Program-made: the position numbers and the translations under genes | Assembly (NCBI GenBank): GCA_947629715.1 | Contig: CANRET010000001.1 | Span: 32,633-96,632 of the forward strand | Source of the DNA: an uncultured Akkermansia sp. | GTDB lineage: Bacteria > Verrucomicrobiota > Verrucomicrobiia > Verrucomicrobiales > Akkermansiaceae | Length of the DNA: 64,000 bases | Reading direction: 5' to 3' | Notes under the pieces: model-generated | What the model was told of the DNA's origin: nothing | Seen by the model: only the letters and a program-made list of their open reading frames with translations | Database searches by the model: none | Shown: positions 1 through 7,329 of the stretch, one piece after another | Layout: each line of letters starts with the position of its first letter | Position numbering within the stretch: the first letter of the stretch is position 1

Positions 1-1402
1 GAGTGAGAGTCCGGCTCGTGAAAACATCCTCCATGAGGGCAACCTGTTCGGCCGTGGCAGGCGCCTTTTCGCTGAACGTAGGTCCGCCCTCAAGAATGGC
101 CTTCATCACGTAGTCCGGATACGGGTTTTCCCCCACAACCGGCAGTTTGTACTTCTGCCCTCGAATCATTGCGAATACGCTTGCTTCGTTCTTGTCCAGC
201 GCATTGACGATTTGCGCAGCACGCAGCGCCGGAGGATAGACTACGGGCTTCAGATCGGCAAGCGCCTGCTTGTGCTCATCGTACGAACGAGCCGTACCGA
301 TAAGGGCAAGGGCGCGGGAAAACTGCTCCATGTCATTGATATGACTCTGCACGCTGCGCAAAGTCTCCCGGTGCGGGGCAATCAGCCTGTCTTCCAGGCC
401 AAAAATGTCTTTGGCGTCCTGAAAGTCATTCATGAGACCCGTCAGGTGGCGCATGGCTTCCTGTAAACGCGGCAAATCTTCAGCCGTCTCTCCGGTCAAC
501 TTCGGCGCAGGAAAAGGCTCGGAAAAACGCTTGATATGATCACGCTTTTGCTGCTCGAGAATCTCCCGCTCCGGGCGGCATAATTCATCCCACTGCGCCA
601 TCAATTTTCCGGCAAAAGGAGCAGGCAAGGCCCGTATACGGCGTAAAAAACGCGCTCTCTCCTCAAGGCTGAGCGATGAGACCGCCTCGAGCTTTTCATA
701 GAGCTGCATCCGGCGCGTCAGCTCGCCGCTTTCGCGGAGGACGGCTTGCCGCCAATGGCGCGCAGCCTCCGCAATGGACGCCACGCCGCCATGCACGAGA
801 CGATTAATGCCGGTATCCGTCGCTTTCAGCAATCCGTCCGCGCGTTCCCAATTTTTCTCACTCACAGCATCACTCAGTTGGGATGCAAGGTTGTCGGCTC
901 TCCCCCGCAAAATGAGAACGAGACTTACCAGCGCCAACAAAAAAACGCCGAGTACGACCAACCTCACCACGCGGCTGCGCGTGCTCTTTTTTCGGCGGCG
1001 TGAAAGTTCCTTTTTCAAAAGACCTGACAGCGAGCGCGTTCCCTGCGGAGCCGGCTGACCGGCGGATTTGAGTACTTTGATGTGCATCCGGAGATCCCGG
1101 TACGCCATCTGCAATTCCGGGGTGTGAGAGCAGGCTATCGCCTGAGGACTGCTGAAGCTCCTGAGCATGGCCGCAATGCTCTGTTGTCCCTCCAGTACAG
1201 CGCGAGCGGTACGCTGTCGCTTATTTTCAGTCACGCGCAAAGGTTTTCCGGCGTTCATGCGCGCGAGTTCTTCGGCAACCTCCGCATCTTCCGGGTATGT
1301 GCGATGCATGCGCTCGAGCAGCGTCCGAGCCTCATCCACATGCCCGGACAAGACGCAGCGACGCAGGGCGCGCCATTCATCTGCTTTGGGATGGCGAGAC
1401 AT
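1..1402 (-). CDS. Membrane-anchored coiled-coil/TPR-like protein, partial (runs off left edge)
   Basis: Open frame from ATG at 1402 (MSRHPKADEWRALRRCVLSGHVDEARTLLERMHRTYPEDAEVAEELARM...) with one TM segment (VVRLVVLGVFLLALVSLVLIL); no stop before the window edge; overlaps the stop of the upstream gene. Confidence 0.75.
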   Translation of the reverse strand, partial: MSRHPKADEWRALRRCVLSGHVDEARTLLERMHRTYPEDAEVAEELARMNAGKPLRVTENKRQRTARAVLEGQQSIAAMLRSFSSPQAIACSHTPELQMAYRDLRMHIKVLKSAGQPAPQGTRSLSGLLKKELSRRRKKSTRSRVVRLVVLGVFLLALVSLVLILRGRADNLASQLSDAVSEKNWERADGLLKATDTGINRLVHGGVASIAEAARHWRQAVLRESGELTRRMQLYEKLEAVSSLSLEERARFLRRIRALPAPFAGKLMAQWDELCRPEREILEQQKRDHIKRFSEPFPAPKLTGETAEDLPRLQEAMRHLTGLMNDFQDAKDIFGLEDRLIAPHRETLRSVQSHINDMEQFSRALALIGTARSYDEHKQALADLKPVVYPPALRAAQIVNALDKNEASVFAMIRGQKYKLPVVGENPYPDYVMKAILEGGPTFSEKAPATAEQVALMEDVFTSRTLT

Positions 1403-2534
1403 CGGCGTGCGATCTTTTGTGTTTTACAGTCGGGAGAGGGACGTCGTCCTCCGCCGCAGGAGCCGGAGAAAGGACTTTGTCACGTACGGACGGGATCGAA
1501 GGGCGGCGAGGCTCTGAGCTTTTTTCGCTGAGCAATCCCGGCAACATCGCCGCACCGCACAAAACAACCGCACTACCTATCACGACCGGCAATATGTACG
1601 ACTTGCGCGGCAGTTCCGCCCCGGAATTCAGTTCCAATAAATCCGCAGAGCTGTACTCTGCATGCCGACAGGACATCATCACAGGCAATGCTGCCAGCGG
1701 AGAAAGCCTGGCAGCAGATTCCGACGGATCACCGGGGGGAGGAGGCAACGTGTCCTCGATCTTGGGGCTCAAAGTTTCGGCGGATGGCATCGCGGTCAAC
1801 CCGGGACGAAGCTCCAACACAGGCGTCTCAGCCTCACGCGCTCTTTGCTTAAGCGGCGAATTCGCCATGCAGAACAAGCGCTCCTTTCTCTCCGGCAAAC
1901 GCAACTCCATTGTCGGTACGCAAAACCCCATTCCCCACCCGCGATCTTCTCTCTGAGCGTCGCTCTCGTGCAACAGACTCAACATGTCTCTCGTACGCAC
2001 ACCGACGGGCAAGCTCACCACGCACCCATCGCAGTAAGGCGCCTGCTGCAGCGCCCAGGCAGACGTTGCATGACCGGTCAACACTTTCCACGTAGCACAC
2101 ATGTGCGGTGAGGGACAAGTTCCGCGAAAACAAGCTTCTGCTTCGTCCATGATTGTGGGCTGTCCACGCCATTCTTTCGCCCAAAATCTCTGCAATTCCA
2201 GCATGAGAGCCACACCGGCAGGCGTAGCGCAATCATCAGCTCGCAACAAATTGCAACGTTCAGAGTCGCGCAGAACCAGATGGTGAATCGTACGAGCGCC
2301 ATCCTGTCCCCTTCTCGCGGAAACCAGCACGTGAAAAAGCTCTCCGCCATCCGGGACGGTCGTGTAGCAGAACGTCGGCTCATCGGCGACCGCGCGGGCG
2401 ATGCGAAGGGTACGCTGCGCCACGAACCGTTCCAGATCGGCGCTCATGCTGCGGGTGCGCACTACGGCGGTGGCATTTGCGCCCGTCGTCTCCGACTCCT
2501 GCGTCCGCACAGTGTAGATGAGCTGGTAGGACAT
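1377..2534 (-). CDS. GAP1-N2-like GTPase-associated protein with one C-terminal-half TM segment
   Basis: 385 aa ORF; N-terminus YQLIYTVRT...AVVRTRSMSADLERFV...FHVLVSARRGQDGARTIHHLVL resembles GTPase-associated protein 1 N-terminal domains; TM YILPVVIGSAVVLCGAAMLPGLL; in an operon with a GTPase. Confidence 0.7.
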   Translation of the reverse strand: MSYQLIYTVRTQESETTGANATAVVRTRSMSADLERFVAQRTLRIARAVADEPTFCYTTVPDGGELFHVLVSARRGQDGARTIHHLVLRDSERCNLLRADDCATPAGVALMLELQRFWAKEWRGQPTIMDEAEACFRGTCPSPHMCATWKVLTGHATSAWALQQAPYCDGCVVSLPVGVRTRDMLSLLHESDAQREDRGWGMGFCVPTMELRLPERKERLFCMANSPLKQRAREAETPVLELRPGLTAMPSAETLSPKIEDTLPPPPGDPSESAARLSPLAALPVMMSCRHAEYSSADLLELNSGAELPRKSYILPVVIGSAVVLCGAAMLPGLLSEKSSEPRRPSIPSVRDKVLSPAPAAEDDVPLPTVKHKRSHADVSPSQSR

Positions 2535-2550
2535 AGCCGGTCAGAAACAT

Positions 2551-4317
2551 TCAACTGCGACTTTTACGCAGAAGATCAGGTTCCTTGCAGTGCAATGCCC
2601 AGAGCATGGGATCGATCACGCGATTAGGCTTTACTTTGCCATTTGCCGGAACGCAGTACGCCTCTCCCCGCTCATCCGTAACCTCCGCCGTCTCCCCACC
2701 GAAAGAACTTACGGCGAAATAACGCACATTGCTGGATACGGTCTCCGCATTGGTGCAGATATTCGGAGAAATATTGAAGAGGAATTCACGCAAACGCTTT
2801 GAGTTGGCATCGACAAACTTCGGCTGGAATTGTCCGTTGCGGACACTGGGAAGCAACGGCTCGGGACCGAGCAAGTCCTGCCAAACGTCACTTTTGCCGA
2901 TGATGATGGCAAGCGGTACGGCCAGCTTCTTTTCCGGCGGCAGATGCAAGGCCGAGCGCAACCTCATTTCCACATCCGAAAGCATGAGAGCCTGACGCTC
3001 ACGCACCCGGCGCCCTTTCGCTTTACTCGCGCCGTCGTCCATTTTAATGATCTTGCGGAATGCGATATCTGCCGTGGGATCAAAGAGGAAAAAAATTGCA
3101 GACGCCGCCTCCAAATGTCCGGCCTCATCCTCCGCCTCTTTCCCGTCCGGCTCATAACCGGTTCCGGCGGTATCGTAAAGCGTCACGCTGCACGTCTTGC
3201 TCCCACTGCTCAGACTGTATGTGAAAGGACGGGGCACGCGCACATAACGTCCATCGCGCCACACATCGTGATACAGCTCTCCGGAGGAAGATGTCCGGGC
3301 AAGAATAGCGCTCTGCGGATTATCGGCAGAAAACAACTTCATACGCATGGAGTTGAGCGAAGCATTGCCGGACGCGTCCGAATCTCGAAAGGCAATTCCG
3401 AACTCACGTGACAAGGCATACTCCAACTGGTGCAGCATCGTCGTCAGATAGTAGGTCTTCCCGGACCCGGGCGTCCCGACAAGCGAAAAAATCATTTGCC
3501 TCGCCTTCATGAAGAAGGAGGGCAATTTATGATGGCAGCGCGGGCAGGCGTACTCTCGAACACTCAGCCCCATTGCATCCACAGGCACTCCCTGCCGGTC
3601 CAGATTAATGGGTGTAAACCGTTGCTGAGCCTTCTCGCCCAGGATGGTGTCTCCCGTCAAATTCGGGTGCGCGGATACAGCCAGCGCCTGGGAGATCGGA
3701 AAACGCTGCCAGCAATGAGGGCAGCACACTTCCCTGCCCCCATCATCTTTTTGATCGTTGCTGTCTTTCACCGTGCGCACAGCGCGCCCGCCCCCGGACA
3801 ACTCACCGTGTTCTTCCGCCACAAAACGCGCCACCTCCCGGATATCGTCCAACTCAAATGCACATGTTGCAAGCCCCTTGAAAACCACGAGCTTCTTCCC
3901 ACGCGGCTCCTTGGGCAAAGCGTCGACGTCCTCCAGCTTCATGGCCTCGCTCCACTTTCCGGAACTCTTGTCGTACACGTACCATTCGGTCGGATTGAAT
4001 AAGCCAAAATCAGGCATGAAACGCTCATCCCCCAGCCATGCGATAAAGCATCCCCCCCCTAACACGAATAAATTGGGCGAGTTAAGTCGTAACTGAACCT
4101 CTCGTTCCGTCCTCTCTCCGTTGAAGGAATAACTGCCAACCGTCAAATGGGGGAAAAAGCGACATACCCCCCCCTGCAACGCAAAAGTCCCTCCTAACTC
4201 AGAACGCATCTTACAGCGAAAAACACTCCCCTGCCCCCGTCCTATCGTCATAAACGAGGCATCCGAAACACGCAACTTCTTGCTTAAACAATCGAATATG
4301 TACAGTCTGTTATCCAT
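2551..4317 (-). CDS. P-loop GTPase with FHA-like N-terminus and zinc ribbon (double-GTPase/TRAFAC-like partner of GAP1)
   Basis: 588 aa; Walker A GTPGSGKTYYLTTML, Walker B LYDTAGTG, G4-like IIIGKSD; CxxC pairs CCPHCWQRF and YACPRCHHKLP; FHA-like start LRVSDASFMTIGRGQGS. Confidence 0.75.
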   Translation of the reverse strand: MDNRLYIFDCLSKKLRVSDASFMTIGRGQGSVFRCKMRSELGGTFALQGGVCRFFPHLTVGSYSFNGERTEREVQLRLNSPNLFVLGGGCFIAWLGDERFMPDFGLFNPTEWYVYDKSSGKWSEAMKLEDVDALPKEPRGKKLVVFKGLATCAFELDDIREVARFVAEEHGELSGGGRAVRTVKDSNDQKDDGGREVCCPHCWQRFPISQALAVSAHPNLTGDTILGEKAQQRFTPINLDRQGVPVDAMGLSVREYACPRCHHKLPSFFMKARQMIFSLVGTPGSGKTYYLTTMLHQLEYALSREFGIAFRDSDASGNASLNSMRMKLFSADNPQSAILARTSSSGELYHDVWRDGRYVRVPRPFTYSLSSGSKTCSVTLYDTAGTGYEPDGKEAEDEAGHLEAASAIFFLFDPTADIAFRKIIKMDDGASKAKGRRVRERQALMLSDVEMRLRSALHLPPEKKLAVPLAIIIGKSDVWQDLLGPEPLLPSVRNGQFQPKFVDANSKRLREFLFNISPNICTNAETVSSNVRYFAVSSFGGETAEVTDERGEAYCVPANGKVKPNRVIDPMLWALHCKEPDLLRKSRS

Positions 4318-4331
4318 CGCACTCCGAAAAT

Positions 4332-4361
4332 GTTATACCACGTCACGCCCCATGTCGTCAA
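4332..4361 (-). promoter_or_regulatory. Candidate sigma70 promoter of the GTPase/GAP1 operon
   Basis: Minus strand TTGACG-N18-TATAAC, 14 nt before ATG 4317. Confidence 0.65.
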
Positions 4362-4428: not shown

Positions 4429-5307
4429 ATGCGCTTGTTCGTGCTCACGCTGCTGCTTATTTCATCGCTGTCGAGTGCAGGGGCGGATCTTCGTATAGCA
4501 AGTCTGCATCCGTTGCTCAGCGAAATGGCCAGGCGTGTGGGTGGCGATGACGTGGAGGTCGTGGACATCTTCCCTCGCGGCGGAGAGCTCCACCGCTTCG
4601 AACCGAGCGCCCGAGAACTGTCTGCAGCTGCAGGTTGCCGCTTTATACTTGCTTGCGGCAAGGGAACAGAGCCCTATCTGGGGGCCTTGCGAGAATCGCT
4701 TAATCCATTTAAGGTAAGCATTTTGGAGCTTGGAGACACTGTGCCGGACGTGATGACGCCGGACGGGGCCGCAGCAGATCCGCACTGGTGGAATGCTCCG
4801 GAAAATATGAAGCGCGCCGCTATTTCTCTCGCGATGACTCTGGCGCAGGCATTGCCGAACAGAAAAGAGGCTTTGCGCACGCGTCTCGCCGAATACGCGC
4901 GCTGCATGGACATGCTGACGCGTGAGGCGCGTCTCGCTCTGTCGCGCGTCCCACAGGAGCGACGCACCCTGGTCACGGCGCACGCTGCCATGTGTCATTT
5001 TTGCGAGGCGTTCCGACTGATGCCATTGGCTGTGCAGGGAGTAGCGACAGAGAGCGAGGGCGATATGGCTACGGTGGCACAATTCATCCGTGAACTGCGG
5101 GCGCGCGGCGTTCGCCGAATCTATGCCGAAGTGCGCGATGCTCCGCGATTTTTACAAAATATCGCAGAAGCGGCCGGAATTTCGCTTGGGGAACTGGTCA
5201 TGGACGGCGTCGCTCCCGGTCAACCTCCTTACGAAGTCATTTTTCGGTTCAACTTGCGTGCTGTATGCGATGGCCTTTCGGTTCCGTTTGAAACGTCCCC
5301 ATCATGA
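4429..5307 (+). CDS. Zinc/manganese ABC transporter substrate-binding protein (ZnuA/TroA family)
   Basis: Signal peptide, then IASLHPLLSEMARRVGGDDVEVVDIFPRGGELHRFEPSARE; DPHWWNAPENM; HAAMCHF histidine motifs. Confidence 0.88.
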   Translation: MRLFVLTLLLISSLSSAGADLRIASLHPLLSEMARRVGGDDVEVVDIFPRGGELHRFEPSARELSAAAGCRFILACGKGTEPYLGALRESLNPFKVSILELGDTVPDVMTPDGAAADPHWWNAPENMKRAAISLAMTLAQALPNRKEALRTRLAEYARCMDMLTREARLALSRVPQERRTLVTAHAAMCHFCEAFRLMPLAVQGVATESEGDMATVAQFIRELRARGVRRIYAEVRDAPRFLQNIAEAAGISLGELVMDGVAPGQPPYEVIFRFNLRAVCDGLSVPFETSPS

Positions 5308-5744
5308 AAAAGCCGTTGAAAACTCTCGCCTATTGCGCACTGGGCATTGTCATCGCCGGCCTGCCTCTGATATTTTTCAACGTCAGGTCCGATCCGGCAC
5401 GCGAGGTCAATCCTGCCGCAACGGAGGAGATTCGGGTCATGGCCCCGATCTTGGTACGCTACACGAACGCTCCGGCCGAGATTCGGATTCTGCGCACCGG
5501 TGATGAAATCTTACGCTTGCAGCCGGATTGCAGCGGCCAGTGGTACGGCGCGCTTCCCTTGCCTCCCATCCACCCCGGATCTGTGCTTGAACTTGAGGTG
5601 CAGGCCCGATGGGCGCATCCCCCCACTGCTCGACAAGTTATCACCCTGCAGCTTTTCCCTCCCGGTCTTCCGACGGCAACCGATACCCAATGGACCGATA
5701 CCCCTGCGAATGAGCTGCACAGCATCTTCCTCTTCCGATGGTAA
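5304..5744 (+). CDS. Uncharacterised membrane-anchored protein within the metal ABC operon
   Basis: 146 aa with N-terminal TM; 4-nt ATGA overlap with the upstream gene and overlap with the downstream ATPase. Confidence 0.75.
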   Translation: MKKPLKTLAYCALGIVIAGLPLIFFNVRSDPAREVNPAATEEIRVMAPILVRYTNAPAEIRILRTGDEILRLQPDCSGQWYGALPLPPIHPGSVLELEVQARWAHPPTARQVITLQLFPPGLPTATDTQWTDTPANELHSIFLFRW

Positions 5745-6511
5745 ATTGCAGAGATCATGTATGTTGGGGAGCAGCTGACCCCAATCACCACCCGCACGAG
5801 CTGCTGGTACGCCGACTCTCGGCGACATACGCGCGCGCGGAGCGACCGGCAATCTCCGGTATCTCCTTCAGCATTCATTGCGGTCACACCCTCGCGATCA
5901 TGGGGCCCAACGGTGCCGGCAAATCCACCTTGCTCAACGTGCTGGCCGGCATCATGCCTCCGGATGAGGGAGAAGTGTTGTGGGACGGTCACCCGTTGCA
6001 CAACACGCGCCGAGAAGTTGCCTGGCTTCCCCAGCGCAGTGAGATGGATCTCTCCTTTCCTATCACGGTGCGCGAGCTGGTTGAGATGGGACGCTATCCG
6101 GCTCTAGGCGCATGGGGAAGCATGGGAGAGCATGATGTCAACATGGTCAACAAGGCTCTTCACACGCTGGAGATCGATTCTCTGCAGCGCCGACAAATTG
6201 CCGAACTCTCCGGTGGGCAACTCCAGCGCGCTTTTCTGGCCCGCGCGCTCGCCCAGGAGGCCCATATCCTGCTTCTCGACGAACCATTCACCGGACTGGA
6301 TGCTCCCGGTGCTCACTCTCTCGGACTGCTTCTCGGCGAACTCGCACACGAAGGGCGTCTGGTGATCGCGAGTTACCACGATATCAGCAACGCGTCTCAG
6401 TACTTCGACAGCGTCCTGCTGCTGCATTGTGAACAACGGGCATACGGACGAAGTGCGGAAACTCTGGCGCCTCAAAACATCAACCGCGCGTACGGCGCCG
6501 TCGGCCTATGA
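5738..6511 (+). CDS. Metal ABC transporter ATP-binding protein
   Basis: GPNGAGKSTLLNVLAG, LSGGQLQRAFLARALAQ, LLLDEPFTGLD. Confidence 0.93.
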   Translation: MVNCRDHVCWGAADPNHHPHELLVRRLSATYARAERPAISGISFSIHCGHTLAIMGPNGAGKSTLLNVLAGIMPPDEGEVLWDGHPLHNTRREVAWLPQRSEMDLSFPITVRELVEMGRYPALGAWGSMGEHDVNMVNKALHTLEIDSLQRRQIAELSGGQLQRAFLARALAQEAHILLLDEPFTGLDAPGAHSLGLLLGELAHEGRLVIASYHDISNASQYFDSVLLLHCEQRAYGRSAETLAPQNINRAYGAVGL

Positions 6512-7329
6512 ATGAATTTTTAAGCTACCTTGCCGAACCCATCGCTCTGCGTACGCTGTGGGCCTGTGCTGTAATCGGCTTTGTGGATGGTTACGTAAGC
6601 GCGCTGGTTGTTCTGCGGCGTTCCTCTCTTCAGATAGGCGCAGTTTCGTGTGCCCTTCTCCCCGGGATTGCCATCGGCATACTGCTCTTCGGGCTGGGGC
6701 AATGGAGCGCACTTGTTGGGGCCATTGCCGCCGGCATGTTGGTGGGACTGAGTTCCCTTTTTGTAGCGCGCACGACCCGACTGCACCATGATGCAGCTCT
6801 CGCCGTTATCCACTCCGCTGCCTTTGCCTTCGGGTACGTCGTTTTGGTTCGCCTGGGCATGCAACAGAAAGTCGATGATTGGCTTTTCGGCAATATCATG
6901 AGCATGAGCTACGCCGATCTTTGCCTGGCGTACGCCACGGGCGCTGCAGCTCTGTTGTGCATCACGGCCTTCATGCGACCGCTTCTCCTCTGGCTTTTCG
7001 ATCCGAATGCCGCCACCAGTTTCGGTTTACCCACGCGTGCCATCAGCTATGGAGTGTACGCTCTCATCATTCTGGCGCTCGTATCATCGTTACAGGCGGT
7101 AGGAGCGCTGCTCACACTCGGGCTGCTCGTAGCCCCGGCAGGCATCATGCGCCTGCTCACCAACCGAGCTGAACTCATGTTCTGGGGAGCCGGCGCCATA
7201 GGGGGAGGCTGCAGCATCGCCGCCTTCTTCATATCCTATCCGCTCGGACTGCACCTCGGCGCCACAATCATCCTGCTTTTGGGCATCGCATTCTGCGTAG
7301 CGTGGCGCTTTCGTTCATCGTCTCGCTGA
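6508..7329 (+). CDS. Metal ABC transporter permease (ABC-3 family)
   Basis: Multi-TM protein typical of ZnuB/TroC; 4-nt overlap with the ATPase. Confidence 0.92.
   Translation: MNEFLSYLAEPIALRTLWACAVIGFVDGYVSALVVLRRSSLQIGAVSCALLPGIAIGILLFGLGQWSALVGAIAAGMLVGLSSLFVARTTRLHHDAALAVIHSAAFAFGYVVLVRLGMQQKVDDWLFGNIMSMSYADLCLAYATGAAALLCITAFMRPLLLWLFDPNAATSFGLPTRAISYGVYALIILALVSSLQAVGALLTLGLLVAPAGIMRLLTNRAELMFWGAGAIGGGCSIAAFFISYPLGLHLGATIILLLGIAFCVAWRFRSSSR

Follow-up and report, generated by a model that had tools for sequence, protein, structure and literature searches.

What function is served by the three adjacent, partly overlapping minus-strand genes at the left edge of this stretch of DNA, which encode a GTPase and two proteins each predicted to cross the membrane once? 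The stretch, referred to here as the window (64,000 nucleotides, G000:C1:32633-96632), lies in the 2.2 Mb draft genome of a gut Akkermansia, and the nearest relatives that carry a name are MAGs of uncultured Akkermansia with the isolate names 'Lapin' (probably from rabbit gut). The initial annotation assigned the genes to the GAP1/GTPase systems described computationally by the Aravind group, an assignment that agrees with the main text of Kaur et al. (2020; PMC7159879), and proposed that they form an NTP-dependent conflict system, with an effector possibly lying further to the left.

The operon and its three proteins

The genes, domains and upstream site are as follows, in window coordinates:

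4332-4361, minus strand: promoter-like site TTGACG-18 nt-TATAAC upstream of the GTPase gene (direct sequence reading, which is not functional evidence)
2551-4317, minus strand: GTPase gene, 588 aa, first of the operon (ORF, orthologues, AlphaFold)
4024-4317, minus strand: N-terminal FHA-fold domain, about residues 1-98 of the GTPase (Foldseek and alignment)
3535-3723, minus strand: split zinc ribbon of the GTPase, C199-P-x-C202 ... C258-P-x-C261, with a conserved 55-residue insert (alignment)
2569-3501, minus strand: G domain of the GTPase, with G1 GTPGSGKT (281-288), G3 DTAG (382-385) and G4 GKSD (474-477) (alignment, fold matches)
1377-2534, minus strand: GAP1 gene, 385 aa (ORF, orthologues, hydropathy)
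1-1402, minus strand: TPR/single-TM gene, first 467 of 716 aa in the window, edge-open ORF 2-1402 (ORF, profiles, model, hydropathy)

Since the gaps between these genes are +16 nt (GTPase/GAP1) and -26 nt (GAP1/TPR gene) on the same strand, the three are read as one operon, as had been supposed, and the promoter-like site was likewise found again, with the remark that a consensus scan demanding T at the last position passes over TATAAC. The expectation that the operon continues past the left edge was correct, and the suggestion of an effector there was not. Leftward extension of the contig gives the third gene in full (716 aa, L002:14884-17034), followed at spacings of 3 and 17 nt by genes for a YfcE-like phosphoesterase and then a phosphopantetheinyl transferase, after which a convergent gene ends the cluster. 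The extended contig does not support an effector past the edge, and no variable effector gene or effector fusion was found in the operon or in the leftward extension. Further to the left of the window, at L002:7753-10178 (G000:C1:24753-27178), a BsuBI/PstI-type restriction endonuclease gene (E 8.7e-59) adjoins an Eco57I-type methylase gene, and this restriction-modification pair is only a few kb from the operon. Divergent from the operon on its other side are ZnuA-ABC-permease metal uptake genes (window 4429-7329, plus strand), among which a 146-aa protein is encoded at 5304-5744.

The AlphaFold model of the GTPase (mean pLDDT 85) contains a single all-beta part of FHA size, residues 1-98, and Foldseek aligns the model with the FHA structure 3po8 at a TM-score of 0.79 and an rmsd of 2.1 Å over 96 columns; further FHA structures (3oun, 4qcj and others) are matched at TM-scores of 0.74-0.79, and the G domain matches Ras/EF1A/atlastin-like folds. 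The FHA-like N-terminus noted initially is thus an FHA fold, and a distant orthologue, L157, has a canonical FHA domain in the same place (E 4e-12). In the L155 orthologue a GYF_2 domain replaces the FHA domain at this position, from which it appears that the N-terminal adaptor of the GTPase is exchangeable. Of the ligand positions, the window GTPase has GR and NG in the alignment, the GR not being kept in most relatives, while the Ser-x-x-His positions of a phosphothreonine reader were not found in it, which marks its FHA domain as degenerate. A GYF domain within the Akkermansia GTPase (residues 108-165), suspected by sequence, was rejected at a profile-comparison probability of 1%.

Ahead of the G domain, Cys199, Cys202, Cys258 and Cys261 are invariant in the GTPase alignment (A1) and kept in nearly all relatives, which upholds the split zinc ribbon described initially; judged from this pattern, the GTPase carries the ribbon N-terminal to its G domain, where DO-GTPase systems have one or two zinc ribbons. 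The DO-GTPase2 profile reaches the window GTPase at E 0.019 and 15.1 bits, below the cut-off of 27. It exceeds this cut-off in the relatives L059 (31.4 bits), L058 (27.3) and L156 (34.9), falls just under it in L056 (26.5), and matches 23 of 26 family members at E up to 1, so that by way of its relatives the GTPase is classed as a DO-GTPase family member. The Walker B Glu386 of the family (DxxGE) is replaced by Thr in the window (DTAGT). DxxGE is kept in every non-Akkermansia locus and in most Akkermansia, and for most of the window's clade the alignment has Thr, Ala, Ser or Val in place of the Glu; its absence is read as a loss inside the family and not as the sign of another one.

The second protein has a GAP1-N2 region at about residues 1-115, a middle region and a single TM segment at 317-335 by hydropathy. 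It has no Pfam match of its own, and the orthologues that align with it match GAP1-N2 (PF20013) at E 1e-10 to 1e-22, so that the profile searches reach both DO-GTPase2 and GAP1-N2 through relatives, the window proteins themselves being sub-threshold or unmatched. Through these orthologues it is taken to be a GAP1-N2-type protein encoded directly downstream of the GTPase gene, with the one TM segment that had been described. It ends after the TM segment, the C-terminal part of its relatives of 800-1250 aa having been lost, and a GAP1-M profile matches only L055 and L155 among the orthologues scanned.

The third protein, expected to have one TM segment and a TPR-like N-terminus, has a TPR at residues 12-49 and a single TM segment at 146-164 (hydropathy) with positive charges on its N-terminal side; the helical region and mixed C-terminal domain that follow are predicted to be periplasmic. 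A PDB fold search with its model gave no overall match (best E 0.4), and only a C-terminal SH3-like stretch resembles PDB entries, namely DUF903/YgdR lipoproteins. Taken together, the operon is very probably a real, if reduced, member of the DO-GTPase/GAP1-N2 systems.

The system in other Verrucomicrobiota

The GTPase-GAP1-TPR order is conserved across Verrucomicrobiota, where further genes accompany it. A gene for a GYF-domain protein adjoins the TPR gene in 25 of the 26 non-Akkermansia loci with enough flank, and after the core and the GYF gene there follows, in 13 of 20 loci with enough flank, a MotA/TolQ/ExbB gene whose product is above the Pfam cut-off for ExbB in every complete copy tested. 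Behind ExbB come two proteins, each about 270-350 aa long and with a single TM segment near its N-terminus; they matched no Pfam family and are labelled putatively ExbD-like for this TM segment, a usually conserved Asp and their position. The whole channel trio could be followed in Prosthecobacter and in one genome of the Opitutales (L150, L149). Variants occur in three other families, in which GYF is joined to trypsin or is part of the GTPase, the GYF-trypsin fusion being found in L156.

The link is not confined to single loci. When 289 genomes of the phylum were searched with a profile of the first ExbD-like protein, 27 had a match, of which 22 also hold the GTPase (hypergeometric p 1.3e-14, a figure that ignores genome relatedness), and by coordinates about 20 of these 22 pairs lie at most 13 kb apart on one strand, in many Verrucomicrobiota families. 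An ECF sigma factor gene is divergent from the GTPase gene in nine Opitutae-type loci (L116, L118, L120, L130, L134, L137, L140, L142 and L143), with a zf-HC2-like partner in L142. Other arrangements were also seen: the L157 family showed no ExbB trio, and there a PilM-like protein (L157:10368-12224, E 6e-16) with one TM segment is encoded directly after GTPase-GAP1-TPR, and the L152 and L153 genomes, which carry the GTPase operon, have a second, distinct ExbB (471-490 aa; with a zinc-ribbon-like start in L153) and two ExbD-like proteins with no GTPase nearby. In G053, GrpE is found near the GTPase locus, an association that Kaur et al. also report.

These data bear on the conflict role that was first proposed, and that Kaur et al. 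(2020) suggest for all DO-GTPase/GAP1 systems, whereby an invader would be sensed by GAP1 or the TPR/TM protein, the GTPase would act as a threshold switch, and an effector would kill or arrest the cell in anti-phage defence or kin recognition. Such a role would accord with the published classification, which in the main text of PMC7159879 lists GAP1-N2 systems from verrucomicrobia, with the patchy presence of the GTPase in 51 of the 289 phylum genomes, with the likeness of the L156 GYF-trypsin fusion to the one in that text, and with a weak similarity of the linked ExbB to ZorA (E 2e-6). However, this similarity covers only the MotA/ExbB domain, the operon and the region past its edge have no effector, no FNIII match was found in the operon genes or flanking genes scanned, the search found no viral relatives of the operon, and the chromosomal neighbourhood is constant within the genus. 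Direct evidence for a conflict role was not obtained, the PADLOC defence models matching none of the three core proteins apart from a weak JetC hit (E 0.0047) on a coiled-coil stretch at residues 24-142 of the TPR protein, and such a role seems rather unlikely. A phage or other foreign origin was rejected, viral relatives being absent and the GC of the three core genes (0.55-0.59) being near the window average of 0.58. The channel trio and the ECF sigma links suit an envelope role better than a conflict role.

Loss and retention in Akkermansia

The usual order in Akkermansia is GTPase-GAP1-TPR-phosphoesterase-transferase, in a neighbourhood stable across the genus, and orthologues of the three core genes are found in this order in most Akkermansia examined. 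The operon is not universal housekeeping equipment of the genus: the GTPase is found in 27 of the 36 other Akkermansia sampled and is missing from nine, and the TPR protein is found in 43 of 59 Akkermansia genomes, the window's own counted. Both the GTPase and the TPR protein are missing from several larger genomes that are complete or nearly so (G004, G015, G017), which indicates that the operon is clade-stable yet dispensable. It is very improbable that the operon is a housekeeping one in which the membrane switch serves the phosphoesterase or the phosphopantetheinyl transferase encoded 3 and 17 nt downstream: both genes do come after the TPR gene in most Akkermansia loci, but in the other Verrucomicrobiota that were examined the operon does not include them, so that the link is a matter of genus-level gene order, and a quarter of congeners manage without the GTPase.

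Akkermansia lacks the channel module, the ExbD-like gene being absent from the window's genome and from every Akkermansia searched, and its GTPase, GAP1 and TPR genes have been lost piecemeal. The GTPase is absent from G025, where a transposase-like gene pair lies upstream, and G014 and G008 have lost GTPase and GAP1 and retain the TPR gene at a dN/dS of 0.15. In these two genomes (L145:8960-11605 in G014; L146 in G008) the TPR/TM protein and the phosphoesterase remain, and in G014 the TPR/TM gene is directly downstream of an apparent phosphoglycerate kinase gene. GTPase-GAP1 also occurs with no TPR gene in place, in G007 (one locus), G009 and G023, from which it follows that the three parts do not strictly depend on one another. 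Some Akkermansia have a second, divergent GTPase-GAP1 locus (L049, in G007:C45, and G062:C3); in L049 the gene that comes next encodes a protein of 910 aa, the C-terminal end of which is similar to the TPR/TM protein.

Losses of this kind could mean that the operon is a decaying remnant, in which GTPase and GAP1 drift for want of the channel and only the TPR/TM protein and the YfcE-like phosphoesterase are still useful. The loss of the Walker-B Glu across the window's clade and a GAP1 length that changed five times or more on the GTPase tree would fit with decay, as would four Akkermansia loci (L091, L092, L096, L101) in which the G3 motif is gone, leaving apparent pseudo-GTPases in otherwise intact operons. 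Compared with the nearest species, however, dN/dS is 0.107 for the GTPase, 0.234 for GAP1 and 0.144 for the TPR gene, rough figures with synonymous sites close to saturation, and on these values the genes look functional and under purifying selection; in the window the frames are intact and the GTPase retains G1, G3 and G4. Decay is, on balance, an unlikely explanation.

The preferred reading is that the operon is the remnant core of a GTP-gated inner-membrane or envelope switch, to which we assign a probability of about 0.5. The cytosolic GTPase would use its zinc ribbon and its degenerate FHA domain to dock on two cytosolic sites, the GAP1-N2 domain of GAP1, which one TM segment holds at the membrane, and the TPR of the third protein. 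Whether GTP or GDP is bound would then determine how a membrane-spanning complex assembles or which conformation it takes, and the TPR protein would supply the periplasmic part of this complex with its helical/SH3-like C-terminus. In other Verrucomicrobiota, where the switch genes are encoded beside a channel and two ExbD-like subunits, an envelope-machine job is probable, and the switch probably regulates a proton-powered envelope machine or senses the state of the envelope. Akkermansia does not have this output module, the window's clade has trimmed the switch further (Walker-B Glu lost, GAP1 truncated), and some species retain only its TPR/TM protein. As the channel module is missing from all Akkermansia tested, function in this host cannot be inferred from relatives. 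A broader proposal, tentative and on present evidence doubtful, is that DO-GTPase, GAP1, TPR/TM and GYF proteins control a motor of MotA/ExbB and two ExbD-like proteins as a phylum-wide GTP-gated proton-channel machine that arose separately from MglA-AglRQS, of which Akkermansia would keep a motorless core with another output. The piecemeal loss in gut Akkermansia shows which parts persist without which, and provides natural variants for comparison (no channel, no Walker-B Glu, no GTPase).

Comparison with known systems

The DO-GTPase/GAP1-N2 systems were defined by Kaur, Burroughs, Iyer and Aravind, with verrucomicrobial members included, and were predicted in the main text to act near the membrane, the class being one of conflict systems (PMC7159879). 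More recently, a 2024 paper on envelope stress mentioned a DO-GTPase protein with a predicted role in membrane-related stress (PMC11237479); experimental studies of DO-GTPase/GAP1 systems were not found in the literature searched. The window operon shares with the systems in the main text of PMC7159879 a TRAFAC GTPase that bears a zinc ribbon in its N-terminal part and, as the next gene, a GAP1-N2 gene with a C-terminal TM segment, and its relatives share GYF partners, those of Kaur et al. having trypsin or a TM region and occurring in planctomycetes. It differs in that there is only one GTPase, which carries a degenerate FHA domain, in that a TPR/TM protein completes the core of three, and in having neither an FNIII protein nor an effector. 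The link of the relatives to MotA/ExbB and ExbD-like proteins is new with respect to that main text, which mentions none of MotA, ExbB, TolQ or ExbD.

Zorya (PMC11890865) likewise combines a MotA/ExbB-type protein with a single-TM periplasmic partner, a likeness that applies to the relatives only. Unlike in Zorya, no nuclease or helicase partner was seen, and membership was rejected, the ExbB similarity being confined to the common MotA/ExbB channel domain.

A further comparison is with the MglA/Agl-Glt machinery of Myxococcus, where MglA acts on AglR and GltJ (PMC12288465) and AglRQS consists of one ExbB-type and two ExbD/TolR-type proteins (PMC3169522). The relatives, though not Akkermansia with its missing channel trio, combine a GTPase with one MotA/TolQ/ExbB and two ExbD/TolR proteins in the same way, and in both cases there are partners with an FHA domain (GltG in Myxococcus) and TPR domains (PMC3169522, PMC12288465). 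In contrast to the DO-GTPase, MglA is a small Ras-like GTPase whose GAP is MglB, and the outer-membrane Glt set was not seen at the loci studied here; the likeness is one of design. Formally, the proposed switch would resemble MglA acting on the AglRQS motor, and would add to MglA a second case in which a GTPase is paired with a motor. For a known kind of system this offers a new and testable phylum-wide context, in which the MotA/ExbB-type channel link, together with the ECF sigma factor in Opitutae, gives the DO-GTPase/GAP1 family a concrete candidate output that can be tested, namely proton flow or envelope force.
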